Of a DNA stretch of 64,000 nt, positions 1 to 17,403 are shown one piece after another; position 1 is the stretch's first letter, and each line of letters begins with the position of its first letter. Below the pieces are notes generated by a model. That model did not search any database, was not told where the DNA came from, and saw nothing but the letters and a program-made list of their open reading frames with translations. The DNA comes from Tenacibaculum soleae (lineage in GTDB: Bacteria > Bacteroidota > Bacteroidia > Flavobacteriales > Flavobacteriaceae). The position numbers and the translations under genes are program-made. Location: contig NZ_MAKX01000024.1 in assembly GCF_001693415.1 (NCBI RefSeq), positions 145,303 through 209,302 on the forward strand, given 5' to 3'.

Positions 1-1100
1 ATAGAACTACATCAATATGGTTATCAAAAACCATTTATGATATGTTAAAAAATACTTGGTATATAGGTCAAAGAAAATGGGGTGGTGTAGTGTATCCAGT
101 ACCACCAATTATTTCAAAAGAACTATTTAACGAAGTAAATAATAAATTGACTAATAGTAATCATAAGAAAGGTAAATCAGTAAATTATCGCTTTTTACTT
201 AAGGGTATTATTTTTTGTGAAAAGTGTGGTCGTGCATATAATGGTAATAGAAAATATAATAACAAGAATCACAATAAAACAAGTAAGTATTCAGCTAATT
301 ATTATCAATGTGCATCTAAACGATTAATGAAACATAATTGTGATAATTTTGGTATTAACATAACTAATTTAGAAAGCTTTATTATCTGTCATTTATTTAA
401 AAATAAAGAACTATTGAGTCATCTTGAAAATTTAGAAAAAAAAGATACTGCATTAATTGAAAATAAAGAAGAGTTAAATAGATTAACTGAACAAATAATT
501 GAACAAGAGGATATTAGAGATAACGTTGAAAAATCATTATTTGTAGAAGGCATTAATGATATTACTAGAACAAGATTTATAAAAAAACTTAATAATCTTG
601 AAGAACATGTTAAAGGATTAAACACTAAAATTGAGCATACTAGGTTAAGAATTAAAGAAATCGAAAATGACCGTCTTTTAAACATCAGTAATCAAATAAA
701 TAGTTATAACAAGAATTGGGAATTTCAAGAGTATAAAGAAGCTGTAAATAATATAATTGATAGGATAATAGTACTAGGTGAAAGAAATGAAAAAAACTTC
801 AACAATAAAAAATATCATTTAATTCAAGTCAAATATAAAGGGTACGATGATTATTCAGTTTTTTTATCAAAAAAACCACATACTAAATGGATATGGTTAA
901 ATAGTGTCAGAAAAATGACAGAAAAAGAAATAAATGAAGAAATAAGTATACAAGAAGAATTAATAAAGTATGAAACAGGTAAAGAAATTAAAGTAACAAA
1001 AAAAGAAATTCAAAATATTTATCATGAAGGTTTATTAGTTAATGAAAACATAAATAAAATAATTCAACTTAAAACCGAAGATATAATTGATTTTGATTAA
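1..1100 (+). CDS. Large serine recombinase (integrase), 5'-truncated by the window
   Basis: The reading frame is open to the window edge (first full codon at 3), so the ATG at 42 is internal and the N-terminal catalytic resolvase domain lies outside. What remains is the recombinase-domain pattern ending in a YIG motif (KNTWYIGQRKWGG), then a zinc ribbon with CEKC and a later C-x9/10-C pair, then a long charged coiled-coil-prone segment and a lysine/glutamate-rich tail. This order is standard for large serine integrases and transposon resolvases of mobile elements. Such enzymes integrate or excise an element at att sites without host factors. It sits at the left edge of a block of accessory genes, so it may be that block's integrase. 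No att sites could be identified. Confidence 0.85.
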   Translation, partial: RTTSIWLSKTIYDMLKNTWYIGQRKWGGVVYPVPPIISKELFNEVNNKLTNSNHKKGKSVNYRFLLKGIIFCEKCGRAYNGNRKYNNKNHNKTSKYSANYYQCASKRLMKHNCDNFGINITNLESFIICHLFKNKELLSHLENLEKKDTALIENKEELNRLTEQIIEQEDIRDNVEKSLFVEGINDITRTRFIKKLNNLEEHVKGLNTKIEHTRLRIKEIENDRLLNISNQINSYNKNWEFQEYKEAVNNIIDRIIVLGERNEKNFNNKKYHLIQVKYKGYDDYSVFLSKKPHTKWIWLNSVRKMTEKEINEEISIQEELIKYETGKEIKVTKKEIQNIYHEGLLVNENINKIIQLKTEDIIDFD

Positions 1101-1383: not shown

Positions 1384-1620
1384 ATGAATACAAGTAGAAC
1401 ATTTAGGTTTAATTCAAATGAAGGTTTAAATTATACTGTTAGATGTGTTGTTGGTAATAGAAATTATATTGTAATAAGTATTAATAAAAATCCATTAGTT
1501 ATTAATACTTACAAAACAATATATGAAGCTGTAAAAGACAGACAAAATTTAATGATTATTATGGATTTATTGGGTCTAATAAAAGAATACAAAGGAACTC
1601 CTTTGATAAACAAGATTTAA
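1384..1620 (+). CDS. Hypothetical small protein (78 aa)
   Basis: A 78-residue ORF with no recognised family. The composition is soluble-looking (MNTSRTFRFNSNEG at the start, then short alternating beta-like stretches and a helical C-terminus). Its stop codon directly abuts the stop of the convergent polymerase-like gene, with no spacer for a terminator. An A-rich stretch precedes the ATG, which suits weak Bacteroidota ribosome binding. The position between a decayed gene and the replication-like module suggests element cargo. It could be spurious. Confidence 0.4.
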   Translation: MNTSRTFRFNSNEGLNYTVRCVVGNRNYIVISINKNPLVINTYKTIYEAVKDRQNLMIIMDLLGLIKEYKGTPLINKI

Positions 1621-3018
1621 TTACTCCTCACTAATAACAGGAACAACTCCCAATACATCTCTAAAAACAGATTCCATAATTTCTAAGGTGATTTTTTTAT
1701 CTTCTTTTCTTACTATCAAAGCATCATGAATAGTAAAAGGAGTAACTTCTTTTTCTACTAATTTTCTGCAAATTTTATTTATAAAAATATCTGATTCAAT
1801 TTGTTGTAATTTTATGGCAAATTCAGCATAGTTTTTAGTTTTTTGTGATGAGATGATTTTGTAAATATTTGGATAAACTTCTTTAAAAACCTTTTTATCT
1901 TCCTTATAACTTTTGTTTTTCGAATAAGCTATCTTCATCCACAAATCTTTAGATTCTTTTCTAGCTATACCGTATAGCTCTTGTAGGTGTTCATACCAAT
2001 TTCCGTTAATTGTAAGATTGAAATACTGTTCAATCTCTTTCTTTAAATCTTCTGTTGCATTTATTAAGTAATCTTTCAATAGAATATTAAATAACACTGG
2101 TTGCGAGTTCTTTAAATCCAAATAGACCATATTTTCATAACCAATTATAAACTGACGTAAATCACTACTCATATTAGTTAAGTTGGTGTCTATTCTTCTA
2201 TTAGTTTTATTTCTTTTAAAATAAATTGATTTTAAATTTTTACCTCCACCAATAGCTTTAATAGACGAAATTCTTGAAGCGTATTTATTATACGCTTTTA
2301 TCTTTTCTTCATTATTATTAGCGATATCAATATTTTTATAATATTCATTAGTAGTGAAGTCAATAGCTTTTTCAGCATCAATTTTAAAATTCTTTCTGAA
2401 ATGGCTTCCCATTTTTTTTATATGCTTCGTAGCATTGTTAATAAAACTTGAATCCTCATTGTAGCTACTTGTTAAATAGCTTTTGTTTTTAGAGGTAATC
2501 AATATTTTTACTTCATACCAAATAGTTGAAATCCTACTTTTTTGACTGTTGTAATCTTTAGGTATTTCGGTGCTTTCAGAGTGATTGTATTCTATTATTG
2601 TGAAACAATTGGGAGTAACTACATCTTTACTAATTATATTATGAATAGATAATAGCTTATAATATTCTTCAATATATTTATTCAGTTCTAATAGATAGTA
2701 ATATGTTGTTTTTCCTTTGAAATAATAATCGTTCCAAATAATATTATTGTTAGCTAAAAAATCAATATGCTTTACATAAGCATTACCATACCTACTCTTT
2801 AAATATCTAGAGTCTAAAGGTGAAAATAAGTTTAAAGAGCTATCCTTTTTATTAAAAATGGAGTTTTTTGTAATGATATCATTTAAAATACTAATGAATA
2901 TTTCTGGTTTATAATTAAAATCACCAAGTCCTAAATGAAGTTTCAATAGTAAATTGTCTACAATTACTTTGGGTAAATATATTGCCCTATATTTTTTATA
3001 TACTTTTTTCTTTGACAT
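1621..3018 (-). CDS. Divergent family-A/phage-type polymerase-palm protein with winged-helix-like N-terminus
   Basis: Protein of 465 aa. Residues about 65-112 read like a winged helix (LKSRYGNAYVKHIDFLANNN, then a short wing and YYYLLEL). Residues 273-291 carry the RRIDTNLTN...LRQFI lead-in. MVYLDLKNSQP (297-307) resembles motif A, with D301 as the first metal ligand. RKESKDLWMKIAYSKNKS (353-370), followed by VFKEVYPNIYKII, resembles motif B. FAIKLQQIESDIF (400-412) precedes TIHDALIV (429-436), which resembles motif C with H431-D432. This order is that of family-A DNA polymerases and single-subunit RNA polymerases. The third motif-C residue is Ala, not the Glu of PolA or the Ser of T7-type RNAP. 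There is no exonuclease domain. I infer an element replicase or primase-polymerase. The function is not established, and it could be an inactive relative. Confidence 0.6.
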   Translation of the reverse strand: MSKKKVYKKYRAIYLPKVIVDNLLLKLHLGLGDFNYKPEIFISILNDIITKNSIFNKKDSSLNLFSPLDSRYLKSRYGNAYVKHIDFLANNNIIWNDYYFKGKTTYYYLLELNKYIEEYYKLLSIHNIISKDVVTPNCFTIIEYNHSESTEIPKDYNSQKSRISTIWYEVKILITSKNKSYLTSSYNEDSSFINNATKHIKKMGSHFRKNFKIDAEKAIDFTTNEYYKNIDIANNNEEKIKAYNKYASRISSIKAIGGGKNLKSIYFKRNKTNRRIDTNLTNMSSDLRQFIIGYENMVYLDLKNSQPVLFNILLKDYLINATEDLKKEIEQYFNLTINGNWYEHLQELYGIARKESKDLWMKIAYSKNKSYKEDKKVFKEVYPNIYKIISSQKTKNYAEFAIKLQQIESDIFINKICRKLVEKEVTPFTIHDALIVRKEDKKITLEIMESVFRDVLGVVPVISEE

Positions 3019-3338: not shown

Positions 3339-3551
3339 TTATTTTGTTTTAAGTTTTCCAATAGTTGGAATTATAATATGAAACACTCCGTTTTCATCCT
3401 TCAATAAAGAAAAGTCTTTTAAAATTGATTCATATAAAACATCTTCAAGTCCTTCATATTTTGTCTTTATTAAAGAAATTAATTGTTGTTTAATTTGCGA
3501 ACTATAAATTGATTCTTCTTGCTCTTTAAAATTATTGCTATTAATTTTCAT
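3339..3551 (-). CDS. Hypothetical small protein (70 aa) of the replication-like module
   Basis: A 70-residue acidic protein of unknown family. The N-terminal half looks helical (SSQIKQQLISLIKTKYEGLE) and the C-terminal part beta-like (FHIIIPTIGKLKTK). It starts 4 bp after the stop of the upstream 69-aa gene and is third in a tight minus-strand run of three small genes, so co-transcription is likely. The strongly structured patch at 3248-3303 lies just downstream. No function is proposed; regulators or replication accessory proteins are plausible by position only. Confidence 0.55.
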   Translation of the reverse strand: MKINSNNFKEQEESIYSSQIKQQLISLIKTKYEGLEDVLYESILKDFSLLKDENGVFHIIIPTIGKLKTK

Positions 3552-3555: not shown

Positions 3556-3765
3556 CTAAGCTATTTGTCTTGCTTCACATGATAAATACTCTGCTAGAAT
3601 TAACTGGTCTAACTCATTATTTTCATGTAACCAGATAAGTTCGATTTTTAAACTTTCATCACTGTAGTCAGCTTCTTCTTGGTATTGAATACTAACGTAA
3701 TTTATTAATAGTTTTTTGGTGTAAGGTGTGTATAGTAATTCGATATTTTCAATAGTCATTTCCAT
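3556..3765 (-). CDS. Hypothetical small protein (69 aa) of the replication-like module
   Basis: A 69-residue acidic, helix-rich protein (YSDESLKIELIWLHENNELD in the middle) with no recognised family. It lies 3 bp downstream of the small HTH gene and 4 bp upstream of the 70-aa gene, so it is the middle member of a compact three-gene operon. Short acidic partners of HTH proteins are common in mobile elements, but nothing in the sequence fixes its role. Confidence 0.55.
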   Translation of the reverse strand: MEMTIENIELLYTPYTKKLLINYVSIQYQEEADYSDESLKIELIWLHENNELDQLILAEYLSCEARQIA

Positions 3766-3768: not shown

Positions 3769-3969
3769 TTAGTTTTTGTTAGTGTATTTGTTATTAAATT
3801 CAAATAAGATACTTATGTGAATCTTCCAACTATGCCTTTTTTTGTACAGTAAATCTGGTTGGTCTTTATACTTGGTTTTGAGTTCTTTTATACGGTAACG
3901 AAAAGTACGTTCACTGATTTTAGTTAATTCAAGTACATCTTTAAATTCATAGTAAATTTTTTGCTTCAT
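3769..3969 (-). CDS. Small helix-turn-helix DNA-binding protein (66 aa, excisionase/MerR-like)
   Basis: A 66-residue basic protein. VLELTKISERTFRYRIKELK (residues about 13-32) reads as a helix-turn-helix of the MerR/excisionase type, followed by a Lys/Trp-containing wing-like segment (YKKRHSWKIHISIL). It is the first gene of the minus-strand small operon and diverges from hsdM across 151 bp. That gap holds the 14-bp repeat AAATATTGTTTGTT twice, one copy directly abutting this start codon, and a perfect palindrome in the hsd leader. It may regulate the element or act as an excisionase; both are inferences. Confidence 0.6.
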   Translation of the reverse strand: MKQKIYYEFKDVLELTKISERTFRYRIKELKTKYKDQPDLLYKKRHSWKIHISILFEFNNKYTNKN

Positions 3970-4120: not shown

Positions 4121-5869
4121 ATGACAAATGTTAAAGAATCTGCCAATTTTATTTGGTCGATAGCAGACTTATTAAGAGGAGACTACAAACAAAGTGACTA
4201 CGGAAAAGTAATATTACCACTAACTGTTTTAAGACGTTTAGATTGCGTTTTAAAAGCTACAAAAGCAAATGTTTTAAAAAAGCATGAGCAAGTAAAGACT
4301 ATGAATATTCAGAATCTTGACCCGATTCTAAATAAAGTAGCTGGATATAACTTTCATAATTCAAGTTTATTCGATTTTGATAAACTAATTGCAGACCCAA
4401 ATAATATTGCTTCTAACTTACGAAACTACATTAATGGTTTTTCAGAAGAAGCAAGAGAAATTATAGAACAGTTCGAATTTGAGAACCAAATTACAAAGTT
4501 GGATGAATCGAACTTACTGTTTATGATACTGAAACGTTTTCAAGAAATAGATTTACATCCAACCCAAATTTCTAGTATGGAAATGGGGTATATGTTCGAA
4601 GAACTAATCAGAAAATTTGCCGAAATATCTAACGAAACCGCTGGAGAACACTTTACACCTCGTGAAGTAATTCGCTTAATGGTAAATCTATTGTTTATGA
4701 ACGATAGAGAAATCTTAACACAAAAGGGAATTGTAAAAACAATTTTTGATTGCTGTGCGGGTACTGGCGGAATGTTATCTGTAGCCGAAGAATATCTGAA
4801 TGAATTAAATCCAAATGCTCGATTAGAAGTATTCGGACAAGAATTAAATCCAGAATCGTATGCTATCTGTAAATCTGATATGCTAATAAAAGGGCAAAAA
4901 CCAGATAATATAGCCAGAGGAAATAGCTTAAAAAGTAAAGACACTGAAAAGCTAAAAGGCGACCAATTTATAAATCACAAATTCGACTATTTAATTACCA
5001 ATCCACCATTTGGTGTAAAATGGGGTAAAGTTCAAAAAGAAGTAACAGAAGAACATCAATTGCTTGGTCATGGTGGTCGTTACGGTGCTGGTTTACCTTC
5101 TGTAAGTGATGGCTCATTTTTATTCTTAATGAATTTAATGTCTAAAATGAAACCTAAAAGCGAAGGTGGTTCTCGTTTAGCGATTGTATTTAATGGTTCA
5201 CCATTGTTTTCTGGCTCACCAAGTAGCAAGAAAAACGAAAGTACAATTCGTCAATGGATTATAGAAAACGACTTACTAGAAGCTGTTATAGCGTTACCAA
5301 ATCAATTATTTTACAATACAGGTATTAGCACTTATATCTGGATAATTAGTAATCATAAAACTACTGAACGAAAAGGTAAAGTACAACTAATTAATGCGGT
5401 AGATTACTTTAAGAAAATGAGTAAATCTTTAGGTAGTAAACGTAATGAACTATCTGATGAACATATTACAGATATTACAAAACTATATGGTGATTTTAAA
5501 GCCAGTGAGCATTGTAAAATATTTGATAATACCGATTTTGGTTACGCTAAAGTAACTGTAGAACGTCCTTTAGTAGAAAACGGAAAACCAGTTACCGATA
5601 AAAAAGGAAAACCAAAAGCAGATGCCAAATTACGTGATACCGAAAATATCCCGTTAAAAGAAAAAGTAGCTGATTATATGAAACGTGAAGTACTACCACA
5701 CGTACCAGATGCTTGGGTAGACGAAAAGAAAACTAAAATTGGCTACGAAATTAACTTTACAAAATACTTTTACAAGTACAAACCACTAAGGTCTTTAGCG
5801 GATATTAAAGCCGATATTTTAGCATTAGAAACTGAAACCGATGGTTTAATTAAAAAGGTAATGCAGTAA
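4121..5869 (+). CDS. hsdM: Type I restriction-modification system, DNA methyltransferase subunit HsdM
   Basis: Protein of 582 aa. It has an HsdM N-terminal helical domain (FIWSIADLLRGDY onward, residues 10-165), the type I hallmark GEHFTPRE (175-182), the SAM-binding motif I FDCCAGTGGML (209-219) and the catalytic NPPFG (294-298). It transfers methyl groups to adenine N6 within the bipartite site chosen by HsdS, and forms the HsdM2S core and the HsdR-containing nuclease. It is the first gene of a four-gene plus-strand operon. Its stop overlaps the next start by one base, so translational coupling is likely. Confidence 0.96.
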   Translation: MTNVKESANFIWSIADLLRGDYKQSDYGKVILPLTVLRRLDCVLKATKANVLKKHEQVKTMNIQNLDPILNKVAGYNFHNSSLFDFDKLIADPNNIASNLRNYINGFSEEAREIIEQFEFENQITKLDESNLLFMILKRFQEIDLHPTQISSMEMGYMFEELIRKFAEISNETAGEHFTPREVIRLMVNLLFMNDREILTQKGIVKTIFDCCAGTGGMLSVAEEYLNELNPNARLEVFGQELNPESYAICKSDMLIKGQKPDNIARGNSLKSKDTEKLKGDQFINHKFDYLITNPPFGVKWGKVQKEVTEEHQLLGHGGRYGAGLPSVSDGSFLFLMNLMSKMKPKSEGGSRLAIVFNGSPLFSGSPSSKKNESTIRQWIIENDLLEAVIALPNQLFYNTGISTYIWIISNHKTTERKGKVQLINAVDYFKKMSKSLGSKRNELSDEHITDITKLYGDFKASEHCKIFDNTDFGYAKVTVERPLVENGKPVTDKKGKPKADAKLRDTENIPLKEKVADYMKREVLPHVPDAWVDEKKTKIGYEINFTKYFYKYKPLRSLADIKADILALETETDGLIKKVMQ

Positions 5870-7032
5870 TGACTGACTTTGAAAAAGTTATAGAAAACGT
5901 AGCAGTTCGTTTACCTAAACTCCCAGCTAAAAGGAAAAAGAATATATACGATATACTTGGTGTTCAAACTAAAGAAACTATCAACTCAAGAGTATTAGCT
6001 TACTTTTTAAACAATAAAGAAGAGCATCAATTTAACACTCTTTTTATTGATGCTTTAAAAGAATTACTCAAAGAAAAGCAAAAAGACGGAACTGGAATAG
6101 ATATTGAAGCCTTTACTGGTGATTTTAATGTGCTTACCGAAGATGTAACTCGTAGAGCAATTGAAGACGAGGAAAAACAAAAACGTATTGATGTTAGTAT
6201 TGAAGGTAGTGATTGGACAATTATTATTGAAAATAAAATAAACCACACTCTTAACAATCCACTAAAAGCCTATTGGGAACACGCACAAGCTAAGTTTTCT
6301 AATAACGTAATTGGTGTTATACTTTCTATTCCTAAGCTACCAAGAAAAGAATGTGTAGTAAACAATAATATTAAATACATTAATATTACACATAAAGAGC
6401 TAATACGTAAGGTTCAAAAAAACTTAATTATAGGTACAAAAACAAACGACCTCAGCCTTTTTTACTTAAAAGAATACATAAAAACAATAGAGTCTCATTA
6501 CAAAACAAGAACAGACCAACCAAAAATGAATGAATTAGTAAACGTATTAACCAAACAAGGAAAACACATTAAAAACATTCAACATAAAGTAGATGAATCT
6601 GTACGGTTTATTGATAATGAAATAATTGAAACTTTTAAAATGTTTGGATACAAAAAAGTAAAAAGTTGGTTTGTTAATGAAGATAAACACCCCGATATGT
6701 ATTTTTGGATTCACGATTCTAAAAAAATACTTTTAGATAATTCTCTTTGGTTTTGCTATGAATCTTGGGATAGCCTTAATAACAAAGTAAATCAAATAGA
6801 ACAAAAGGATTTATTTAAACATATAGATACACATACTGCTAAAATAACTCATGGAAATTCTAGCAAATCCAAATTAAGAACTCATATTGCTAAATATAAC
6901 CACCATAATTTTTTAAAAGAAGGTGAATCATTTAGAGAAGCTTTCACAAATGTTTTAAGCACTTATTTTATGGCAGAAAATACAGGTATAGTTGACAAAA
7001 CAATTGCTCATTTAACTAAAGAAAACTTGTAG
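5869..7032 (+). CDS. PD-(D/E)XK nuclease-like protein within the hsd operon
   Basis: Protein of 387 aa. The N-terminal half has a PD-(D/E)XK arrangement: helical LPAKRKKNIYDIL, then KRIDVSIEG with D108, then WTIIIENKI with E121 and K123, followed by a helix with WEHAQ. This resembles the PDDEXK_4-type family often found near defence genes. The C-terminal half (about 210-387) is not recognised. The gene starts inside the hsdM stop and ends 1 bp before hsdS, so it belongs to the operon. It may be an extra nuclease or an accessory effector of the type I system. The active-site residues look intact. Confidence 0.75.
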   Translation: MTDFEKVIENVAVRLPKLPAKRKKNIYDILGVQTKETINSRVLAYFLNNKEEHQFNTLFIDALKELLKEKQKDGTGIDIEAFTGDFNVLTEDVTRRAIEDEEKQKRIDVSIEGSDWTIIIENKINHTLNNPLKAYWEHAQAKFSNNVIGVILSIPKLPRKECVVNNNIKYINITHKELIRKVQKNLIIGTKTNDLSLFYLKEYIKTIESHYKTRTDQPKMNELVNVLTKQGKHIKNIQHKVDESVRFIDNEIIETFKMFGYKKVKSWFVNEDKHPDMYFWIHDSKKILLDNSLWFCYESWDSLNNKVNQIEQKDLFKHIDTHTAKITHGNSSKSKLRTHIAKYNHHNFLKEGESFREAFTNVLSTYFMAENTGIVDKTIAHLTKENL

Positions 7033-7033
7033 T

Positions 7034-8353
7034 ATGAAGCAATACAAAACATACAAAGATTCTGGTGTCGAATGGATTGGTGAAGTTCCAGATTCTTGGG
7101 AGTCATGGAAAATAAGTCACGCATTTAAAAAAGTTGGTAGTGGTACAACTCCACAATCTGGAAATCCAATTTATTACGAAAATGGTACAATTAATTGGTT
7201 AAATACAGGAGATTTAAATGATGGAATATTATATTCTTGTGCAAAAAAAGTAACACCAAAAGCATTAGAAGATAATTCTTCTTTAAAGTTATTTCCTAAA
7301 GGCTCTTTGGTTATTGCTATGTATGGGGCTACTATAGGAAAGACAGCTTTACTTCAATTTGAAACGACTACAAATCAAGCTTGTTGTGTATTTAATGAGT
7401 CTAATATAATTGATATTCATTTTTTACAATATTGGTTTAAAGGAAATAAAGAACATATAATTAATTTAGCTATTGGAGGGGGACAGCCTAATATAAGTCA
7501 AGATATTTTAAAAGGTATTAGACTTTATTGCCCAAGTAAAGAAGAACAAACCCAAATAGCCAATTACCTCAACCACAAAACAGCACAATTAGATAGTTTA
7601 ATAGCTAAAAAAGAGCAGTTAATAAGCTTATTACAAGAAGAGCGCACGGCAATGATTAATCAAGCGGTTACCAAAGGACTCAATACAAATGTGCCCATGA
7701 AAGATTCGGGTATTGAGTGGCTGGGTGAGATTCCAGCGCATTGGGAGGTGAAAAAATTGAAATATTTTGCAAATGTTGTATTAGGTAAAATGTTAACCAA
7801 TGAGGATAAGGGAGATTATGAATTAAAACCATATTTACGAGCTAAAAATGTAGAATGGAATACTCCTAATGTAGAAGATGTAAAAAAAATGTGGTTTTCT
7901 AAATCGGAATTGGAAAAATACAGAATTCTTAAAAATGACTTATTAGTTAGTGAAGGTGGTGAAGTTGGCAGAACTTGTATATGGAATGATGAACTAAATG
8001 AGTGTTATATCCAAAATTCTGTTCATAAGGTTACTTTTAAAAACATTACTAATTCTCATTATTTTTTAAGTCAATTTATTTTATTTGGCGAAAAAGGTCA
8101 TTTTGATGCAATAGTAAACAGAATTAGTATAGCTCACTTGACTAAGGAAAAATTAAGTGCAGTTACTTTTGTTTATCCTCCGTTAAAGGAACAAGAAAAA
8201 ATTAATGAGTTTATAGAAATTGAATTTGAAAGAATTAGCACAGTAATTTCAAAAACTCAACAAGAAATCGACTTACTAAAAGAATACAAAACCGCATTAA
8301 TTAGCGAAGTAGTTACAGGAAAAGTAGATGTTAGAGAAGAAGTTTTGAATTAA
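7034..8353 (+). CDS. hsdS: Type I restriction-modification system, specificity subunit HsdS
   Basis: Protein of 439 aa with the two-TRD layout. The entry motif DSGVEWIGEVPDSW opens TRD1, and a related copy (DSGIEWLGEIPAHW, near residue 222) opens TRD2. Each TRD is followed by a helical conserved region: EEQTQIANYLNHKTAQLDSL in the centre, then the matching KEQEKINEFIEIEF and LLKEYKTALISEVVTGK at the end. These helices set the spacing between half-sites and dock two HsdM copies. Length and both spacers are complete, so the subunit should be functional. No second or silent hsdS copy is visible in the window. Confidence 0.95.
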   Translation: MKQYKTYKDSGVEWIGEVPDSWESWKISHAFKKVGSGTTPQSGNPIYYENGTINWLNTGDLNDGILYSCAKKVTPKALEDNSSLKLFPKGSLVIAMYGATIGKTALLQFETTTNQACCVFNESNIIDIHFLQYWFKGNKEHIINLAIGGGQPNISQDILKGIRLYCPSKEEQTQIANYLNHKTAQLDSLIAKKEQLISLLQEERTAMINQAVTKGLNTNVPMKDSGIEWLGEIPAHWEVKKLKYFANVVLGKMLTNEDKGDYELKPYLRAKNVEWNTPNVEDVKKMWFSKSELEKYRILKNDLLVSEGGEVGRTCIWNDELNECYIQNSVHKVTFKNITNSHYFLSQFILFGEKGHFDAIVNRISIAHLTKEKLSAVTFVYPPLKEQEKINEFIEIEFERISTVISKTQQEIDLLKEYKTALISEVVTGKVDVREEVLN

Positions 8354-8363
8354 AAAAAGAGTT

Positions 8364-11300
8364 ATGGCAAAAGGCATACATACAGAATTAACGTTTGAAG
8401 CAGCAATAGAATTATCGTTATTAGAAGATGGCTGTTATGTTAAAGGGCATTCTACAGATTATGATGCAGATTTAGGTGTTTTTCCAAAATACGTTATCGA
8501 GTTTCTTAAAAATTCGCAAGCAAAACAATGGGATAAGCTGGCTAATATTCATAAAGATGCGGTAGAAACAAAGGTTATTCAACGCTTGCTTAAAGAGTTG
8601 GATTCTAAAGGTACGCTGGAGGTTTTGCGTAATGGTTTTACAGATTATGGTGTTAAGTTTAACATGGCGTATTTTCGTCCAGAAAGTAGCTTAAATCCAG
8701 AAGCTGAGGTTTTATATCGTAGCAATCATTTAGCTGTTACAAGGCAGTTGTACTACGAGCGTAATGGTAAGAACTCGCTAGATATGGTGTTAAGTTTAAA
8801 CGGCTTGCCAGTTTCAACAATCGAGCTAAAGAATCAGTTTTCTGGTCAAGATGTTAGCAATGCTAAAAAGCAATATGTTTTTGATAGAGAGCCGAGCGAA
8901 CCGATATTTCAATTTAAAAAGCGTACGTTGGTACATTTTGCTGTAGATGCAGACGAATGCTACATGACCACAAAGCTGGCTGGTAAGAAAACACGCTACT
9001 TGCCTTTTAATTTAGGAGCTAATAACGGAGCTGGAAACCCGCTAAATAAAAATGGGTATCGTACTGAGTATTTATGGGAATACGTTTGGGCTAAAGATAG
9101 CTTTATGGATATTATTGGAAAATTTTTACATTTAGATGTGGAAGTTTACGAGCTAAATGGCGTAAAAAAGAAAAAGGAAACCATGATATTTCCAAGGTTT
9201 CACCAAATGGATGTCGTTCGTAAATTAACTAAAGACGCTAAAACAAAAGGAGCTGGTCAAAATTACTTAATACAGCATTCAGCTGGTTCTGGTAAATCTA
9301 ATTCCATTGCGTGGTTATCTTACCGATTATCAAGTTTACACGATACTCAAAACGAACGAGTATTTGATTCTGTCATTGTTATTACTGATAGAAAAGTATT
9401 AGATAGTCAGTTACAAAACACTATTTATCAATTTGAACACAAACAAGGCGTAGTTCAAAAAATAGATAAAAATTCTCAACAGTTAGCCGATGCTATTACG
9501 GCTGGTTCAAATATTATTATTACTACGTTACAGAAGTTTCCGTTTATTATAGAAAAAATTGGAGAACTAAAAGCTAAAAAATATGCAGTAATTATTGATG
9601 AAGCACATTCTAGCCAAGGAGGTGAAGGAACAAAAAAGCTTAAAGAAGTATTATCTGCAAAGTCATTAGAAGAAGCTGTTTTAGAAGACATGCCTTCTGG
9701 CTTAGATGAAGATGCCGAAGACCAGATACGCAAATCTATGGAAGCTAGAGGAAAACAAGATAACCTTAGTTTTTTCGCATTTACAGCAACTCCAAAAGAC
9801 AAAACAATTCAAGTATTTGGAACTCCAGATAAAGAAGGAATACCAAAACCTTTTCATGTATATAGCATGAAACAAGCTATTGAAGAAGGTTTTATTTTGG
9901 ATGTTCTTAAAAATTATACAACGTATAAAACATACTTTAAGTTATCTAAAGAAATTGAAGACGACCCAAAAGTTAATAAAAAACAAGCAGCCAAAGCAAT
10001 CGGGCGTTTTATGTCTTTACATCCGCATAACTTGGCACAAAAAACCGAAGTAATTATAGAGCATTTCCGACAAGTTGTATCTAAAAAAATTGGAGGGAAA
10101 GCAAAAGCAATGTTGGTAACAGGTTCTAGATTACATGCTGTTCGTTATAAAGAAGAGTTTGATAAATATATTAAAGAGAAAGAATATACTGATATAAAAA
10201 CTGTAGTAGCATTTTCTGGAAAAGTAATATATGATGCGTACCCAGAAGGAGTAACTGAGGTAGAACTAAACGGATTTAAGGAAAAAGAACTGCCTAAAAA
10301 ATTTGCTTCTGATGAATACCAATTACTTTTGGTGGCTGATAAATATCAAACAGGTTTTGACCAGCCGTTATTACATACAATGTATGTAGATAAAAAGTTA
10401 TCTGGAGTAAAATGTGTACAAACATTATCTAGGTTAAACAGAATGCATGCTGGTAAAGAAGATACTTTTATTCTTGATTTTACTAACGATACCGAAGACA
10501 TATTAAACTCTTTTCAACCGTATTACGAACTTACCACAGTAGAAAATACAACAGACCCTAATCAATTATATGATTTAAAATCTGAAATTGAAAAAGGACA
10601 AATTATTTGGGATTCGGAGGTGGATAGTTTTTGTAATGTGTTTTTTAAATCAGCAAAAGCATTATCTGTAAAAGAACAGGGTAAATTAAATGCTTTTGTA
10701 GACCCAGCAGTTGACCGTTTTAAACAACTACCAGAAGAGAACACCAAAGATGATGTAATTGGTACTGAAATTACGCAAGATAATTTTAAACATGCATTAC
10801 AAACCTTTACAAGATTGTATTCATTTTTAACTCAAATAATGCCGTTTAGTGATGTGGAGTTAGAAAAACTATTTACGTATTCTAGATTTTTATTAAAGAA
10901 GCTACCTCGTAAAAATGAAAGTGATAGATTTCAATTAGGCGATGAAGTTTCTTTAGAATATTACAGACTTCAACGTGTAGCAGAACAAAACATTGCTATG
11001 GAGAGCCAAGGTGAATATAGTTTAGAAGTTATGGATGGTGCTGGAATACGCATGAGTAAAGAAGAACAAGAAGCATTATCTGAGATTATTAATGTATTGA
11101 ATAATAGATTCGGTACAGAATTTAATGAAGCCGATAAGTTATTTTTTGACCAAATAGAAGCCGAATTAATTGCTGATAATAAATTATCAGAACAAGCAAA
11201 GAATAACACACTTTCTAATTTTAAGTTTGGTTTTGAAGATGCTTTTATGGATAAGTTAATTGCTAGAATGGAGCAAAATCAAGATATTTTTACCAAAATG

Positions 11301-11375
11301 ATGGATGATAATGATTTTGGTAGTTTGGTGAAAGATTATATGTTAAAGAAGGTTTATGAAAGATTGAATAAGTAA
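8364..11375 (+). CDS. hsdR: Type I restriction-modification system, restriction/translocase subunit HsdR
   Basis: Protein of 1003 aa. The N-terminal PD-(D/E)XK nuclease has D140 in SLDMVLSLNG and E154-K156 in IELKNQ. The SF2 motor follows with Walker A HSAGSGKS (305-312), VIIDEAHSSQGG (Walker B/DEAH), FTATPKD (motif III), a second RecA lobe with TGFDQP and QTLSRLNR (motif VI), and a helical C-terminus for docking to HsdM. It cleaves unmodified DNA after ATP-driven translocation. It starts 10 bp after hsdS. All catalytic motifs are intact, so the operon appears active. Confidence 0.96.
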   Translation: MAKGIHTELTFEAAIELSLLEDGCYVKGHSTDYDADLGVFPKYVIEFLKNSQAKQWDKLANIHKDAVETKVIQRLLKELDSKGTLEVLRNGFTDYGVKFNMAYFRPESSLNPEAEVLYRSNHLAVTRQLYYERNGKNSLDMVLSLNGLPVSTIELKNQFSGQDVSNAKKQYVFDREPSEPIFQFKKRTLVHFAVDADECYMTTKLAGKKTRYLPFNLGANNGAGNPLNKNGYRTEYLWEYVWAKDSFMDIIGKFLHLDVEVYELNGVKKKKETMIFPRFHQMDVVRKLTKDAKTKGAGQNYLIQHSAGSGKSNSIAWLSYRLSSLHDTQNERVFDSVIVITDRKVLDSQLQNTIYQFEHKQGVVQKIDKNSQQLADAITAGSNIIITTLQKFPFIIEKIGELKAKKYAVIIDEAHSSQGGEGTKKLKEVLSAKSLEEAVLEDMPSGLDEDAEDQIRKSMEARGKQDNLSFFAFTATPKDKTIQVFGTPDKEGIPKPFHVYSMKQAIEEGFILDVLKNYTTYKTYFKLSKEIEDDPKVNKKQAAKAIGRFMSLHPHNLAQKTEVIIEHFRQVVSKKIGGKAKAMLVTGSRLHAVRYKEEFDKYIKEKEYTDIKTVVAFSGKVIYDAYPEGVTEVELNGFKEKELPKKFASDEYQLLLVADKYQTGFDQPLLHTMYVDKKLSGVKCVQTLSRLNRMHAGKEDTFILDFTNDTEDILNSFQPYYELTTVENTTDPNQLYDLKSEIEKGQIIWDSEVDSFCNVFFKSAKALSVKEQGKLNAFVDPAVDRFKQLPEENTKDDVIGTEITQDNFKHALQTFTRLYSFLTQIMPFSDVELEKLFTYSRFLLKKLPRKNESDRFQLGDEVSLEYYRLQRVAEQNIAMESQGEYSLEVMDGAGIRMSKEEQEALSEIINVLNNRFGTEFNEADKLFFDQIEAELIADNKLSEQAKNNTLSNFKFGFEDAFMDKLIARMEQNQDIFTKMMDDNDFGSLVKDYMLKKVYERLNK

Positions 11376-11493: not shown

Positions 11494-11540
11494 AAAATAA
11501 TACACTATCTTTATTGAAAAGCTAGATAATGTATTATTTT
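11494..11540. promoter_or_regulatory. 17-bp-arm inverted repeat overlapping the recombinase start (candidate recombination site/operator)
   Basis: The left arm at 11494-11510 and right arm at 11524-11540 match as inverted repeats at 16 of 17 positions, separated by 13 bp. The recombinase ATG (11529) lies inside the right arm. Small serine resolvases and invertases commonly bind a dyad crossover or res site next to their own gene and autoregulate from it. Alternatively it is a simple operator or a start-occluding RNA hairpin. Confidence 0.5.
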
Positions 11541-12149
11541 TATTCAAGAATTTCTACAGTAGGTCAGAACACAGGTCGCCAGATTACTAATTTTAAATCT
11601 CATGGAGAATTTAAAGCTGAAAATTTATATATAGATAAAGTTCAAGGTAATGTTCCTTTTTTAGAACGTCCAGAAGCTTCAAAGTTATTCGATGCGGTTA
11701 CTGGTCTAAACAAAGAAGAGATTACAATAGTAGTAGATAGTATCGATAGACTTGGTAGAAACTTAATTGACATATTGCATACTATTGAACGATTTACTGA
11801 TAACGGTATCAATCTAAAATCAATTAAAGAAGGCTTTGAAACTTTAATAAATGGTGAAAAAAATCCAATAGCAATGGTCGTGGTTTCTGTAATGGGTTCT
11901 ATTGCCGAAATGGAAAGAAACCGCATAAAAGAACGTACAGCAGAAGGTATTAAAATAGCACAGGCAGAGGGTAAATTTAAAGGTAGAAAGATTGGCTCAA
12001 CTCAATCTAATGCTAGATTATTAGAACGTCACCCAAATATTATTAAAAAACTAAATAAAGGGCTTACAGTTCGTGAAGTAGCTGAAATTGTAGGTAAATC
12101 TACAACTACTGTTGTTAAAGTTAAAAAAGTTTTGGCATTGAATAAATAA
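11529..12149 (+). CDS. Small serine recombinase (resolvase/invertase family)
   Basis: Protein of 206 aa, normal for the Pin/Hin/Tn3-resolvase group. The N-terminal YSRISTVGQ has the catalytic serine (S9). DRLGRNL and the later MGSIAEMERNRIKERT are the conserved arginine-bearing catalytic motifs and E-helix. A C-terminal helix-turn-helix (GLTVREVAEIVGKSTTTVVK) binds the half-site. It catalyses site-specific inversion or resolution. It lies 153 bp after hsdR behind its own probable promoter and a dyad. It may resolve or mobilise the island; a direct role in switching hsdS is not supported by any visible inverted copy. Confidence 0.93.
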   Translation: MYYFYSRISTVGQNTGRQITNFKSHGEFKAENLYIDKVQGNVPFLERPEASKLFDAVTGLNKEEITIVVDSIDRLGRNLIDILHTIERFTDNGINLKSIKEGFETLINGEKNPIAMVVVSVMGSIAEMERNRIKERTAEGIKIAQAEGKFKGRKIGSTQSNARLLERHPNIIKKLNKGLTVREVAEIVGKSTTTVVKVKKVLALNK

Positions 12150-12150
12150 T

Positions 12151-12188: not shown

Positions 12189-12680
12189 TTAATAATCAGT
12201 TAAATTACCATCATAAATTCCTGTAACAGAAATCCCATCTTGATTAATACAATCAATAGTAATTTTGTAGTTGTTATTGTTTTTTTCAATTATAACTGTT
12301 CCACTAACAATTTCACCTTCAATCTCTTCAAAATTATTAGATGTAAATTGATTATTTTGAACAAAATAATCACCATTATAAAAAGTGCCATTTTCACGTG
12401 ATAAAGAATGATTAAAAGTATGCACTCCATCATCTAAACTTGTTCCGTTAGAATTATACATGCTAAAGCTTAAATGTAAACCTTCTCCATGTTCAAAATA
12501 AGAATTAGCCATTAACTCGATATAAAAATTATTCTCATTTATATTTCCCATTGAGAAAATAGAAATATTATAATCTTCATTGTTAATTGTTATTTTATTT
12601 TCATTATTACCAATTCCATCATCAGATGAACATGATAATAATGTAAATGCTGTTACAAAAAGTATTATTATTTTTTTCAT
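12189..12680 (-). CDS. Hypothetical lipoprotein (163 aa)
   Basis: The N-terminus MKKIIILFVTAFTLLSCSS is a lipoprotein signal with lipidated Cys17, followed by an acidic linker (SDDGIGNNEN). The body is beta-rich and polar, with motifs such as GEIVSGTVIIEKNNNNYKITI, which resembles small Bacteroidota lipoproteins that store or shed as surface beta-sandwiches. No specific family is recognised. It is last in a three-gene minus-strand run behind the FG-GAP lipoprotein (18-bp gap), so the two are probably co-expressed at the cell envelope. Confidence 0.7.
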   Translation of the reverse strand: MKKIIILFVTAFTLLSCSSDDGIGNNENKITINNEDYNISIFSMGNINENNFYIELMANSYFEHGEGLHLSFSMYNSNGTSLDDGVHTFNHSLSRENGTFYNGDYFVQNNQFTSNNFEEIEGEIVSGTVIIEKNNNNYKITIDCINQDGISVTGIYDGNLTDY

Positions 12681-12698
12681 GATATATTCTTTTATTTA

Positions 12699-14045
12699 TT
12701 AATAACAAAAATTAGAACTAAAGATATTTGCAGCTCCATAATAACCAAATACAGGACTTCCGCCATTTTTAGAAGCACCTACAAATAATTCCATACCATT
12801 ATCTGAATCGTAGTTTCCTTCTTTTATATAATAAACAACACCTATTTTATCATATTTATCATGATTACTCCATTTTACACCTTGACTTTCATTATGTAGG
12901 ATAGATAAGCCAGCAGAAGTATTAAAAACTATATCCTTAAAAGAATCATTATCAACATCAATTGAAACAATATCATAAGTAGTCAAATATATATCTTCTT
13001 CTATAGGTAATTCTACTCGTAATTCTTGATAACCTCCATCTAGTATAGATTTATTATTACTTAATAATATATAAACGTTAGGTACTCTAATCTGGTTGTT
13101 AGAAATATCAGAAGAGGGAGGTTTAGAAGTACCCACAATTAAATCTTTATAGCCGTCTTTATTCAAATCAGTTAAATCACCTAGTGAACCTCTCATTTCA
13201 TTTGCTAACATACTTTCATCATTAAAAGAAAACTGTTTTTTTGAGAAAGTATTTGAACCTTCATTTATATATAATGTTGTTCTACCAGTAGTCCAATTTG
13301 CAGATGCTCCTTCAATGGTTAAAATATCCATATCTCCATCATTTTCAAAATCTACTAACTCCATAAAATGAGAAGAGCCGTTAATCGATTGAATATTAAA
13401 ATTTGAATTACCCTCATTAATAAATAAATCCATATTATTATTAATAAAATCTATATCTCCATCATTATCAAAATCCGAACTAACAAGACTATAAGATATT
13501 CCATAAGAATGAGGTCTTGGGTCGCTTTTTGTTGAGTATGATTTAATAATATTGAAATCTGAAAAACTGTTTCCTAAATTTTTAAACCACCCCACTTTAC
13601 TTAAATCCGTAGAATAAGCACTACAATTAACATAACTAGTAAAAATAATATCAAGATTTCCATCATTATCAATGTCTCCAACCTCAAGAGTTGCTATTGT
13701 TTTGTTATCACAAGGAGAAGCCCAGTTTGTAGTTTTATATTCTTTGAGTAGCTCTTTATTATAAATTTTATTACCATCATTCCTATATAAAAAAAAGCTA
13801 TTTCTATTTTCATAAGATATTATATCAATATCTCCATCATTATCAAAATCTATTGGTTTTGAACTATAAGATGATTCCCCAATTTTGCACACAGATGAAA
13901 TGTTAAAGTCATTATTGTTTTCGAACGGATTATCTATATTATCACCATCTTCTATTGGATTGTCATCAGAAATATCCTCTTGGATAGTCGATGAACAAGA
14001 TATGATAGTATAAATACATATCATTATTATGAATATATTTTTCAT
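12699..14045 (-). CDS. FG-GAP/VCBS-repeat lipoprotein (448 aa)
   Basis: The signal peptide ends in a lipobox (IYTIISC, Cys17) and an Asp/Asn-rich linker follows. The body carries repeated Ca-binding-like DxDxDGDxD loops (for example DFDNDGDIDIISYENRNSFF and DIDNDGNLDIIF), typical of FG-GAP/VCBS beta-propellers with integrin-alpha-like folds. Such proteins sit on the outer membrane and bind ligands or partners. The start is 1 bp from the stop of the upstream 105-aa gene, showing an operon. Ligand unknown. Confidence 0.85.
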   Translation of the reverse strand: MKNIFIIMICIYTIISCSSTIQEDISDDNPIEDGDNIDNPFENNNDFNISSVCKIGESSYSSKPIDFDNDGDIDIISYENRNSFFLYRNDGNKIYNKELLKEYKTTNWASPCDNKTIATLEVGDIDNDGNLDIIFTSYVNCSAYSTDLSKVGWFKNLGNSFSDFNIIKSYSTKSDPRPHSYGISYSLVSSDFDNDGDIDFINNNMDLFINEGNSNFNIQSINGSSHFMELVDFENDGDMDILTIEGASANWTTGRTTLYINEGSNTFSKKQFSFNDESMLANEMRGSLGDLTDLNKDGYKDLIVGTSKPPSSDISNNQIRVPNVYILLSNNKSILDGGYQELRVELPIEEDIYLTTYDIVSIDVDNDSFKDIVFNTSAGLSILHNESQGVKWSNHDKYDKIGVVYYIKEGNYDSDNGMELFVGASKNGGSPVFGYYGAANIFSSNFCY

Positions 14046-14046
14046 G

Positions 14047-14364
14047 TTAAAATTTAAGTTTGATAAGTGTGTCCATATATTTGTTAAACCATTCTTTACT
14101 TATATCTACTACTTTAGCCTCACTGTTTTCATTAGGTTCATACATACCACTTATGTATACATGACACTTTAAAAAAGTTATAAGGTTATTATGTTGATAG
14201 TCTTTAGAGTAAGTAAAATAATGATGGTTCTGTTTATACTCAAACTCTGGAAAAGGAATAATCATATCTTTAGAAGCATATTTAGCCTCTAATTCTTCAT
14301 TTAAAATATTTATTACTTTGTTAAAATTTACTTGTTCAGTCATATTTGTTTTTTTATTTAACAA
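14047..14364 (-). CDS. Hypothetical cytoplasmic protein (about 98-105 aa)
   Basis: A soluble, acidic protein without signal peptide, and no recognised family. The start is uncertain: ATG at 14364 gives 105 aa, while an internal ATG at 14343 (MTEQVNFNKV) gives 98 aa and a more natural N-terminus. It is the first gene of the minus-strand run leading into two lipoproteins. It follows the LytS-type kinase gene on the same strand after a short gap, so it may belong to the same transcription unit or be its target. Confidence 0.6.
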   Translation of the reverse strand: MLNKKTNMTEQVNFNKVINILNEELEAKYASKDMIIPFPEFEYKQNHHYFTYSKDYQHNNLITFLKCHVYISGMYEPNENSEAKVVDISKEWFNKYMDTLIKLKF

Positions 14365-14391
14365 AGAAAAACAAATAAAAGAGCTGTTTTT

Positions 14392-17300
14392 TTACAAATT
14401 ATTTTGCGTTGTATTTTTTAAAGTAATCGTTACAATTGTTCCTTTTAAAGCAGATGAAGTAATTGAAAAGGAATCAGAAGGTAAGTTTAATAATTGTAGT
14501 CGTTCGTTTACTAATTTAATTCCTTTAGATTGATGTTCAGCTATATTTAAATTACTATTAAACCCTTTACCATTATCAATTATACTACAAATTAGAAAAT
14601 CGTTTTTTTGATTAAAATCAATAGTTAATTTAGAATTATTAGAATTATTATTAAAAGCATGTTTAAACACATTTTCTATAATTGGTTGTAATAACATAGG
14701 AGGAATAGTAGTAGTATTTACATCAATATTATTAAATTTTATTTTGATGTCAATTTTATTTTGAAAGCGTAAATTTTCAAGTTCTATGTATGTTTTTAAA
14801 TAACTAATTTCTTCTGCTAGAGAAATGTATTGATGTGATGAATTATGAAGTGTTTTACGAATCAATTTTGAGAACTCACCCATATATTTTAATGAATTAT
14901 CAATATCATTATCAATGATGAAATTTTGAATAGAGTTCATTGCATTAAAAATAAAATGCGGATTCATTTGACTTTGCAATGCCTCTATTTTAGTTTCTGA
15001 AACACGTTTGTAAATATCTTGTTTAAGCTGTTGTTCTTTTTTAATTCTATTGATTTTGTGCTTATAAAACAGATAAAAACTAAATAATACAATACCTAAA
15101 AAGAGACTAATAAACCACCAAGTTTTCCAAAAAGGAGGGTTAATAGTTACTTTTAATAAACTATTAGTATAAGTTTTACCATTGCTATAATCTTTTATCT
15201 CTCCAGTAATATTATAGTTGCCATTACTTAAATAGTTTAATCGCACTGTATTTTTATTACTCCACTGACTCCAATCGTTATTCGATACTTTATATCGGTA
15301 TTTTAGTTTGTTTGGATACGGATGGTTGTTTATACTATAGTTAAACGAAATTGTGTTTTGATTATAAGGTAACTCAATTGACTCTTTAGTGTATTGAAAC
15401 CAATTGTAATTTGAAGAATCAATATTTTTATAATTTACTTTAATGTTTGAAACATTAAACTCATGATATTCAGCATTAAGATTATTAATAATAGTATCCA
15501 AATTAATTTCATAATATCCTTTATCTGTACCTACTAATAATTTATTGTCGGTTACAGTTGCTGAGCTAAAAAATTTATTTGTAATTCCTTGTTCTTCATC
15601 TAAGAAAATAATTGAATCATTTTTATATAAATTAATTCCTTTTTCTGTTCCAATAATTAGATGTTCTTTATAAGTTTTTAAAAACAAGATGGTGTTTCCA
15701 ACTATTTCTTTATTTTTAATTGTGTTTATTATTTTAAAACTATCATTTGGTTCTGTTATAAAAACAGTGCCTCTAGTATTTGCTATAACTAACTGTTTTT
15801 TATTATTAACTACAGAGTATGTTAATTCCTTTTCACTCCAAATACTATCTTGTAAATAGGAAGTAAACTGTTCCTTTTTGTATTGATATAAACCAGAGAA
15901 CTTGGAAGAAAAATATAACTTATTATCAATCTTATTTATTGAAATAATATCTCTTGGATTATTTTTATGACTAAGTTCAAAAACAATGCTTTTAGTATTC
16001 ATTCCAATATTATCTATGGCATAAACCTGTGAATATGGTCTTTGAAAAAAAGCATTGTATTTAGAAGTAAAATAAAAAGCATTGGTATAAATAGGAAAGT
16101 AACTTTCTAATTTATTAGAATTAGATAATTTATAAAGACCAATTGTGGTATTAATCCAAATTTCATTGTTATAATTTTTTATACTTAACAACTCTAAATC
16201 GTTAAAGCTATTACCTTGAAAATGCCCACTAAAACCTTCGTTAAACAATAACTTCTTATTTTTATAATAAGCTTTAAATTTTGAATAGAATTCTAATTTA
16301 GAAATATGAAACTTGTTTTTTTTTGATTCTATAACTAATCCTTTTTTTGTAAGAAAAAACGCTTCATTTTCTTTAGTTTGAATGTCAATAGTATTTTTTA
16401 TATTATTATAAAAACGAACCTTTTTTGATAGATTAACTTTATAAATTCCTTTATCTAAAGTTCCAATTAATAAATTATTATTGTTTTTATCATATTCTAA
16501 ACACCATTGTTTAGTACTTTTTATATTGAATGTATTGTTTTCTTTTACAATAGATTTGTTGTCTATTTTAAATACTCCACCTGTAGGATAATTAATACCA
16601 TCTGCAACTCCGTAGATATTTTGGTTTTTGTCAAATATAAAGTCCCAAAAAACACTATTTCCAAACTCACTATTTGGTTTAATTCCGCTTATGTAATCTA
16701 GAATGTTGAACTTTTTTATCGATTGATTTTTATGAGCGAATCCATCAAAACTTACCAGAATAGAATTTTTGTTTTTGAAAATAGAAAAAACTGAATCATA
16801 GTTATGATGTAAAAAAACTAATTGATTTTTAACTTCATCATATTTCCATAAGCCACTTCGATACGTTTGAATATATACTTCATTCTTGTAAGAAAAGAAA
16901 TCCATAATTTGAAACGAATTATCTGCTTTATCTGTTACATTTTTAATTTCTTTGGAATTAATATCAATAACTGACAATCCATTTTTAGTACCAATAAAAA
17001 CCTTTTGGTTATGGTAAAATATCTTACGAACATAATTGTTTACTAAACCGTTGTTAGTGTTATAAACAGAGAAACCGTTACCATTATAAAAAGTTAAACC
17101 ACCACCATAACTACCAAGCCATAAATTATTATTACTATCTTCTTCAATAGCCCAACAGTTATTATGAGCTAAACCATCTTCTTTATAAAAATTAGAGATT
17201 TTATTGTTTTCTATTTTAGAAACTCCAGCACCTGTACCAACCCACAAAATACCTCTGCTATCTTTTTTTAATGAATAAATACTGTTGCTTGGTAATCCAT

Positions 17301-17403
17301 TTAAAGTAGTTATGTTTTTTGACGGAAATGTTTGTGTGAATGCTAATCGAATGCACAATAAACAAATCAGAAGAAATAATTTATTTTTTATGAAGTATTG
17401 CAT
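14392..17403 (-). CDS. Two-component propeller sensor histidine kinase, LytS/YehU type
   Basis: Protein of 1003 aa with a signal peptide (residues 1-23). It has about 14 two-component-propeller repeats with ILWVGT/NLWLGS signatures (PF07494 type), a Y_Y_Y-like Ig domain at about 690-750, one transmembrane helix at about 759-781, a coiled coil, and a His_kinase domain with MNPHFIFNAMNSI (phospho-acceptor His near 815). The HATPase domain has IDNGKGF and a terminal KGIKLVNERL. It senses a periplasmic signal and phosphorylates the adjacent LytTR regulator, with which it overlaps by 23 bp. The ligand is unknown; the lipoproteins downstream are candidate targets. Confidence 0.93.
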   Translation of the reverse strand: MQYFIKNKLFLLICLLCIRLAFTQTFPSKNITTLNGLPSNSIYSLKKDSRGILWVGTGAGVSKIENNKISNFYKEDGLAHNNCWAIEEDSNNNLWLGSYGGGLTFYNGNGFSVYNTNNGLVNNYVRKIFYHNQKVFIGTKNGLSVIDINSKEIKNVTDKADNSFQIMDFFSYKNEVYIQTYRSGLWKYDEVKNQLVFLHHNYDSVFSIFKNKNSILVSFDGFAHKNQSIKKFNILDYISGIKPNSEFGNSVFWDFIFDKNQNIYGVADGINYPTGGVFKIDNKSIVKENNTFNIKSTKQWCLEYDKNNNNLLIGTLDKGIYKVNLSKKVRFYNNIKNTIDIQTKENEAFFLTKKGLVIESKKNKFHISKLEFYSKFKAYYKNKKLLFNEGFSGHFQGNSFNDLELLSIKNYNNEIWINTTIGLYKLSNSNKLESYFPIYTNAFYFTSKYNAFFQRPYSQVYAIDNIGMNTKSIVFELSHKNNPRDIISINKIDNKLYFSSKFSGLYQYKKEQFTSYLQDSIWSEKELTYSVVNNKKQLVIANTRGTVFITEPNDSFKIINTIKNKEIVGNTILFLKTYKEHLIIGTEKGINLYKNDSIIFLDEEQGITNKFFSSATVTDNKLLVGTDKGYYEINLDTIINNLNAEYHEFNVSNIKVNYKNIDSSNYNWFQYTKESIELPYNQNTISFNYSINNHPYPNKLKYRYKVSNNDWSQWSNKNTVRLNYLSNGNYNITGEIKDYSNGKTYTNSLLKVTINPPFWKTWWFISLFLGIVLFSFYLFYKHKINRIKKEQQLKQDIYKRVSETKIEALQSQMNPHFIFNAMNSIQNFIIDNDIDNSLKYMGEFSKLIRKTLHNSSHQYISLAEEISYLKTYIELENLRFQNKIDIKIKFNNIDVNTTTIPPMLLQPIIENVFKHAFNNNSNNSKLTIDFNQKNDFLICSIIDNGKGFNSNLNIAEHQSKGIKLVNERLQLLNLPSDSFSITSSALKGTIVTITLKNTTQNNL

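Follow-up and report, generated by a model that had tools for sequence, protein, structure and literature searches.

We analyzed a 64,000-nucleotide stretch of the Tenacibaculum soleae genome (contig NZ_MAKX01000024.1, positions 145,303 to 209,302), referred to here as the window. The left part of the window carries a mobile element, and within it a gene for a 465-aa protein that resembles the A-family polymerases of the TV-Pol (transposon-virus polymerase) type. An earlier note, made from the sequence alone, had placed this open reading frame (ORF) at 1621-3018 and left out its strand; the position was correct, and the gene is on the minus strand, with the plus-strand frame containing stops throughout. 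The features of the gene and of the surrounding element, with the evidence for each, were as follows.

1..1100, plus strand: large serine recombinase, 3' part (Resolvase, Recombinase, and Zn_ribbon_recom)
1384..1620, plus strand: 78-aa ORF, convergent with the polymerase gene, no confident family (ORF call)
1621..3018, minus strand: putative TV-Pol-type A-family polymerase gene, 465 aa (ORF call, AlphaFold model, and profile comparison)
1624..2442, minus strand: predicted polymerase core, residues 193-465, with thumb helices, Arg hairpin, palm, and fingers (pLDDT and Z of 16.3)
1723..1728, minus strand: H431-D432, motif C (H in 39/41 homologues, D in 41/41)
1948..1962, minus strand: R353-xxx-K357, fingers RxxxK (R in 37/41, K in 41/41)
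2101..2103, minus strand: Q306, at the position of the PolA steric-gate Glu (D+5; ungapped against PolA E162)
2116..2118, minus strand: D301, putative motif A metal ligand (D in 40/41, E in 1)
2194..2196, minus strand: R275, template-hairpin Arg (41/41)
2443..2682, minus strand: low-confidence linker, residues 113-192, with pLDDT <50 over 116-192 (model)
2683..2997, minus strand: predicted winged-helix domain, residues 8-112, with helices, a strand, two helices, and a beta wing (AlphaFold2 and structural matches)
3339..3551, minus strand: 70-aa ORF upstream of the polymerase gene, no confident family (ORF call)
3556..3765, minus strand: 69-aa ORF, no confident family (ORF call)
3769..3969, minus strand: 66-aa ORF, small helix-turn-helix (HTH) by eye only (ORF call)
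4121..11375, plus strand: cargo, type I restriction-modification genes (Pfam)
11529..12149, plus strand: small serine recombinase, Resolvase domain, 206 aa (Pfam)
12189..18739, minus strand: remaining cargo (Pfam)
18814..18825, no strand: right attachment core, GATATGCTGCAC (junction comparison)
18817..19014, plus strand: start of the 3' piece of the split DUF72 gene (DUF72 profile)

The element splits a DUF72 gene, of which profile positions 1-149 match at 144065-144532 of the host contig (contig 23) and positions 147-216 at 164119-164316. A 12-base core is common to both junctions (the left GATATGCTGCAC copy is at L038:9222-9233, 779 to 768 bases before window base 1), and the flanks, once joined, read through in frame. 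From the split gene and the shared core at both junctions, the element is therefore about 19.6 kb long, which bears out the mobile-island setting proposed in the earlier note. The whole large serine recombinase gene encodes 605 aa (L038:9283-11100) and starts before the window; 527 bp separate it from the polymerase gene. The restriction-modification cargo consists of HsdM, a PDDEXK_4 protein, a specificity subunit with Methylase_S, and HsdR, and the remaining cargo of two family-less ORFs, an FG-GAP protein, a propeller-type sensor histidine kinase, and a LytTR response regulator, the last two being a predicted two-component pair. Among the 16 element proteins, Pfam identified no replicative helicase and no single-stranded DNA-binding protein (SSB). 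The only helicase domain noted is that of HsdR, which belongs to restriction, and no helicase is fused to the polymerase. The three upstream ORFs (66 to 70 aa) match no confident family that would make one of them an OB-fold SSB partner, the HTH profile of the homologous loci did not match the 66-aa ORF, and we found no convincing iteron array or origin.

Other features of the element and its genome were recorded alongside. The AT-rich noncoding gap that precedes the polymerase gene contains a GC-rich stretch (3245-3310); this stretch was rejected as a structured RNA or DNA, with z values of -1.1 and -1.9 against shuffles and no Rfam match. Short inverted repeats flank the small serine recombinase gene, one pair at each end (11492-11542 and 12137-12193; 95% and 80% complementary). 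Switching of hsdS by these repeats was considered and dropped, as both pairs are at the ends of the small-recombinase gene and none spans hsdS. The same genome encodes a second large serine recombinase (contig 12, 131380-133167; L138) that is 46% identical to that of the element; the surrounding 19 kb contain no polymerase gene.

The motifs and residue numbers quoted in the earlier note are all present in the 465-aa translation. R275 lies within RRIDTNLTN, D301 within VYLDLKNSQP, R353-xxx-K357 within RKESKDLWMKIAYSKNK, E408 within LQQIES, and H431-D432 within TIHDALIV. The conservation check that the note had suggested was run on 41 aligned homologues: D301 is Asp in 40 and D432 in all 41, and R275, Y342, K357, and E408 are likewise invariant. 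Because they are kept across these homologues, the catalytic motifs are not chance. The Glu usual in motif C is indeed missing, its position being taken by A433 here and by Ser in 33/41 homologues, so that the motif reads HDA in the window protein versus HDS in 31/41. The nearest candidate for the conserved TV-Pol fingers aspartate is E343 (E in 23 and D in 6 of the 41). As the note had also claimed, the exonuclease part is absent; winged helix, linker, and core account for the 465 aa. The window protein matched no Pfam family, nothing convincing in NCBIfam or PADLOC, and no polymerase in a sequence search of the PDB. It matched phrog_4756, of unknown function, weakly (E = 0.0024), and this family matches 3 of the 25 members in our alignment (best E = 1e-6).

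The structure comparison proposed in the earlier note placed the protein among the A-family polymerases. Built from a 25-row alignment, the full-length AlphaFold model is confident in its core, which begins near residue 200 (10-residue pLDDT block means of 70 to 98, mostly >85, from residue 201). In this model, two thumb helices (215-232 and 236-257), presumably packed antiparallel, directly precede the Arg hairpin (strands 267-269 and 276-278); the helix pair falls inside the range aligned to A-family polymerases. The 50 matches listed by Foldseek against the PDB were all A-family polymerases (best E = 2.3e-5). With VIA-align, the model aligned to Pol theta over 254 residues (Z = 16.3; root mean square deviation [rmsd], 3.2) and to Taq, Bst, T7 DNA polymerase, and apicoplast polymerase with Z of ∼15 to 16. 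The best viral models were A0A516L5C2 (E = 1.1e-25) and, from a marine phage, a protein annotated as putative DNA polymerase I (E = 2.0e-15).

When the core was compared by profile with nine PolA sequences from hosts and phages, the best of eight settings gave Prob 91.7 and E = 1e-7. In the other settings, Prob ranged from 49.7 to 85.1 and E from 6.3e-5 to 1.1e-6 (E = 2.5e-5 at the lowest Prob, 49.7). In the best setting, 12 column shuffles and one reversed control all gave Prob 0.0. Against the eight close host PolA sequences alone, no significance was reached in eight settings (Prob ≤0.8). R275, D301, R353, K357, and H431-D432 align on PolA residues of the same role, with D301 and D432 on PolA D157 and D334. 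By computation, the predicted fold is of the A family and comprises a thumb, an Arg hairpin, a palm, and fingers.

The N-terminal wing read in the earlier note was recovered by structure prediction. Folded alone with AlphaFold2 from a 24-row alignment, residues 1-112 gave a winged helix (pLDDT 84.8). A Foldseek search with this domain gave nothing significant (best E = 0.11). By VIA-align, the domain scored 8.2 against Fur over 81 residues, tied with 4pql (Z = 8.0; 100 residues; rmsd 6.0), and 7.5, 7.0, and 6.5 against 4pt7, 5kbj, and 4pta; these last three and 4pql, all of which we take to be of the initiator or Rep type, cover 95 to 100 of the 112 residues at rmsd 5.4 to 6.3. We assume that 4pql is a plasmid initiator, its entry title reading only DNA binding protein. 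The likeness of the predicted winged helix to plasmid initiators is weak, and since low scores can arise by chance, the initiator-like head is a lead.

In PolA, the residue five positions past the motif A Asp is Glu (E162) in all nine rows of the alignment compared with the core (A7). At this position, the 41 homologues have Gln in 34, including Q306 of the window protein, His in 4, Ile in 2, Val in 1, and Glu in none. The F762 position is M361 in the window protein, and the family has Phe in 15, Leu in 11, Met in 6, and other residues in 9 of the 41. From the loss of the gate Glu we infer that ribonucleotides may be accepted; a Gln at the gate position might still shut out ribose.

Searched as a single sequence, the protein had relatives in 5 of 59 genomes, counting its own genome. 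Profile matches were obtained at E = 1e-3 in 30 of 299 genomes of the Flavobacteriaceae, the family of the host (own genome and some fragments included) and at E = 1e-4 in 17 of 395 genomes of the phylum (own included). Other single-sequence scans of genome and viral collections returned no relative, and scans with a three-row alignment returned two in the genomes and none in the viral collection. Phage and plasmid relatives were few at E = 0.01, namely, three uncultured phage records (595 to 636 kb) and one Hymenobacter plasmid. Alignment A3 contains 25 of the 34 matching ORFs, with the window protein counted once and nine duplicates and fragments dropped; alignment A8 took 15 of 22 matched ORFs, with six copies of existing rows and one 315-aa ORF (L085) left out. 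Eight homologue pairs, none including the window protein, had dN/dS values of 0.10 to 0.26 and are under purifying selection; the gene has therefore been kept for a function. At one locus (L107, genome G326), the polymerase gene is split into two ORFs and resembles a decaying copy.

We also carried out the survey of homologue neighbors that the note had called for, covering 46 loci after leaving out L124 (no polymerase match) and L036 (same contig as L040). It is important to note that these loci are not independent, as several form near-identical pairs, and that part of them also supplied the sequences for the integrase, HTH, and serine-recombinase profiles. By raw count, 39/46 loci have a recombinase of the tyrosine or the serine kind within 9 kb, and 7/46 have neither. 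A tyrosine integrase lies ≤1.8 kb upstream on the same strand in 22 loci and a small HTH gene ≤600 bases upstream in 25, and 20 have the integrase, the HTH gene, and the polymerase gene consecutively on the same strand. Two examples each were used to check the integrase and HTH_17 assignments. The window's own element lacks this three-gene module. Among the nearest neighbors listed, inspected mostly by eye, no recurring helicase or SSB partner was seen. Joint travel of the large serine recombinase with the polymerase was examined and rejected: only 2 of 10 recombinase matches (in nine genomes) have a polymerase, these being the window's own pair and one in G107 (L055), 99 bp apart, and the other eight had none in the stretch examined (<13 kb in three cases).

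Modules are 99.0 to 99.9% identical over 6.1 to 12.6 kb between different genera. For instance, identity reaches 99.9% in L045/L106 over 12.6 kb, L053/L100 over 6.6 kb, and L101/L103 over 6.3 kb, and L103/L104 are 99.0% identical over 7.1 kb. Scanning of 10 loci gave tRNA genes in 6, situated at or close to the shared ends or the integrase. In L101, L103, and L104 (e.g., L103:8307-13114), from three genera, the same gene precedes the polymerase gene, a serine recombinase gene follows it, and a second, small serine recombinase gene is ∼3 kb upstream; the preceding gene encodes ParB_N plus N6_N4_Mtase in L103, the one locus scanned, and the shared stretches of L101 and L103 start at a tRNA-Asn gene. 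In two genera, a compact 6.6-kb block (L053:4173-10772 and L100:1333-7932) contains a small resolvase, an N6_N4_Mtase, the polymerase, and an HTH gene, and it ends inside a tRNA-Phe gene in L053. A small AAA_24 ATPase adjoins the polymerase at L112:7746-8588 (by Pfam) and in L109 and L110 (by sequence likeness), a setting that resembles a phage replication module.

The earlier note had left the protein unassigned in kind, and here it needs revising: by sequence and model, the protein fits the TV-Pol family described in 2008 (Iyer, Abhiman, and Aravind; PMC2579912) and would add to a kind that is known but has been little studied. Replicase, primase, and terminal transferase, as suggested in the note, are candidate functions. 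We favor a primase-polymerase role, by analogy with the staphylococcal CCPol-MP, and consider it fairly likely that such a TV-Pol-type enzyme serves the replication of the serine-recombinase element that carries it. The polymerase is probably used for starting the island's own copying. In this scheme, the large serine recombinase would cut the element out, and the polymerase, guided by its winged helix to melted DNA or to a site on the element, would start short strands with its palm and extend them there. Ribonucleotides or mixed nucleotides might be allowed in this step given the lost gate Glu, and the copy would be finished by the helicase and polymerase of the host. Several results speak against the primase-polymerase role: Pfam recognizes no replicative helicase or SSB in the element, whereas CCPol requires MP to prime; no convincing iteron array or origin was found; the profile misses the TV-Pol of phage Ma-LMM01; the comparison with close host PolA sequences alone was not significant; and the three-gene module is absent from the window's own element. 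We give only a tentative place, well behind the general primase-polymerase role, to a single-protein initiator-primase in which the winged helix would recognize an origin and the gate-less palm would lay down RNA or mixed primers, with no helicase or SSB of its own used. If this were true, a primase neither of the DnaG nor of the AEP type, and unlike CCPol-MP, would be present across Bacteroidota islands.

Three other roles have to be weighed against the primase-polymerase. A repair, gap-filling, or end-processing polymerase, terminal transferase included, would mend DNA ends or gaps left by transfer or recombination. The neighbor survey, in which no helicase or SSB gene recurred beside the polymerase among the nearest neighbors listed, mostly by eye, agrees with such a role, as do the terminal transferase activity of CCPol-MP (PMC7581432) and the repair role offered for divPolA2 in a 2024 phage study (PMC11348598). 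However, the conserved winged-helix head and the frequent integrase-HTH-polymerase order suggest a site-specific start of synthesis, and we regard the repair role as unlikely. Serine and tyrosine recombinases, moreover, are not expected to leave a gap.

The motifs bring in a single-subunit RNA polymerase that would transcribe the element's genes with the winged helix as its promoter-binding part. The steric-gate Glu is absent from all 41 homologues, and the HDS found in 31/41 is close to HDSFGT, the motif C of a T7-type phage RNA polymerase (HDDYGA is the counterpart in a second such phage enzyme). Likewise, RKESKDLWMKIAYS of the window protein is close to the motif B of the T7-type enzyme, RKVTKRSVMTLAYG, and its RxxxKxxxMxxAY reads like RKVTKRSVMTLAY of that enzyme; an RNA polymerase was also suggested for divPolA2 (PMC11348598). 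Against this, the 50 fold-comparison matches listed are DNA polymerases, the Met of the motif is no family trait (Phe in 15, Leu in 11, and Met in 6 of 41), and nothing resembling a promoter repeat came up in passing near the gene during the repeat search. Transcription seems improbable. An anti-phage or host-conflict polymerase, carried as cargo, is suggested by the type I restriction-modification genes of the element and by a large cl6 protein that resembles the window's HsdR in 5 of 22 homologous loci, by likeness. We consider it very improbable: PADLOC gave one weak match (E = 0.0066) in 1 of 25 members and none for the window protein, and it is the recombinase and HTH genes that recur beside the polymerase gene, whereas further neighbors vary.

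The features that set the group apart are its predicted winged-helix head and its lost ribonucleotide gate. Carrying its own predicted DNA-binding head, the group bears on whether A-family palms can be RNA primases. Further, with modules 99.0 to 99.9% identical, the gene is a marker for Bacteroidota islands passing between genera. Among the matches listed in the open-licence literature, we found no paper describing this winged-helix polymerase group.

DNA polymerase I is a long protein with exonuclease parts, and the host copy in this genome is an open frame of 949 aa. The window protein shares its fold and motifs A, B, and C, but the host copies have the motif C Glu and the gate Glu, and the window protein has neither. 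The divPolA2 proteins of barba phages also have a palm without an exonuclease and a globular N-terminal domain of their own; they occur, however, in phages beside a regular PolB and are said to lack a homologous thumb (PMC11348598). A Rheinheimera phage Barba31A DNA polymerase, probably divPolA2, was among the structural matches listed (E = 3.4e-4).

The closest likeness is to the TV-Pols, for which a signature, recombinase neighbors, and Bacteroidetes members have been described (PMC2579912). The window protein shares with them the thumb helix pair, the hairpin Arg, the palm Asp pair, the RxxxK fingers, and the lack of a nuclease domain, as well as the recombinase neighbors and Bacteroidetes members. 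A subset of TV-Pols has an extra N-terminal domain, predicted to be all helical (PMC2579912), whereas the extra domain here is a predicted winged helix; the two may or may not be the same domain. The TV-Pol reported in phage Ma-LMM01 matched neither our family profile (A3) nor phrog_4756, in a comparison that covered these two profiles and this one published member. CCPol was itself assigned to TV-Pol (PMC2579912) and, to the knowledge of the authors of the 2020 eLife study, was then the only member characterized biochemically (PMC7581432). According to that study, CCPol with MP is a template-dependent primase, with MP needed to prime. CCPol-MP of SCCmec, grouped with the PolA-SSB primases (PMC7581432 and PMC10061031), resembles the window protein in having an A-family palm with a catalytic Asp pair on a serine-recombinase island. 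It needs MP to prime and has the helicase Cch2, whereas the window's element has no recognized MP or helicase but does have the predicted winged helix. CCPol also keeps a conserved E174, at the same offset from motif A and equated with E710, the Glu that helps to keep ribonucleotides out, and F225, equated with F762 (PMC7581432), where the window protein has Q306 and M361. At these residues, which contribute to the choice between DNA and RNA, the group departs from CCPol.
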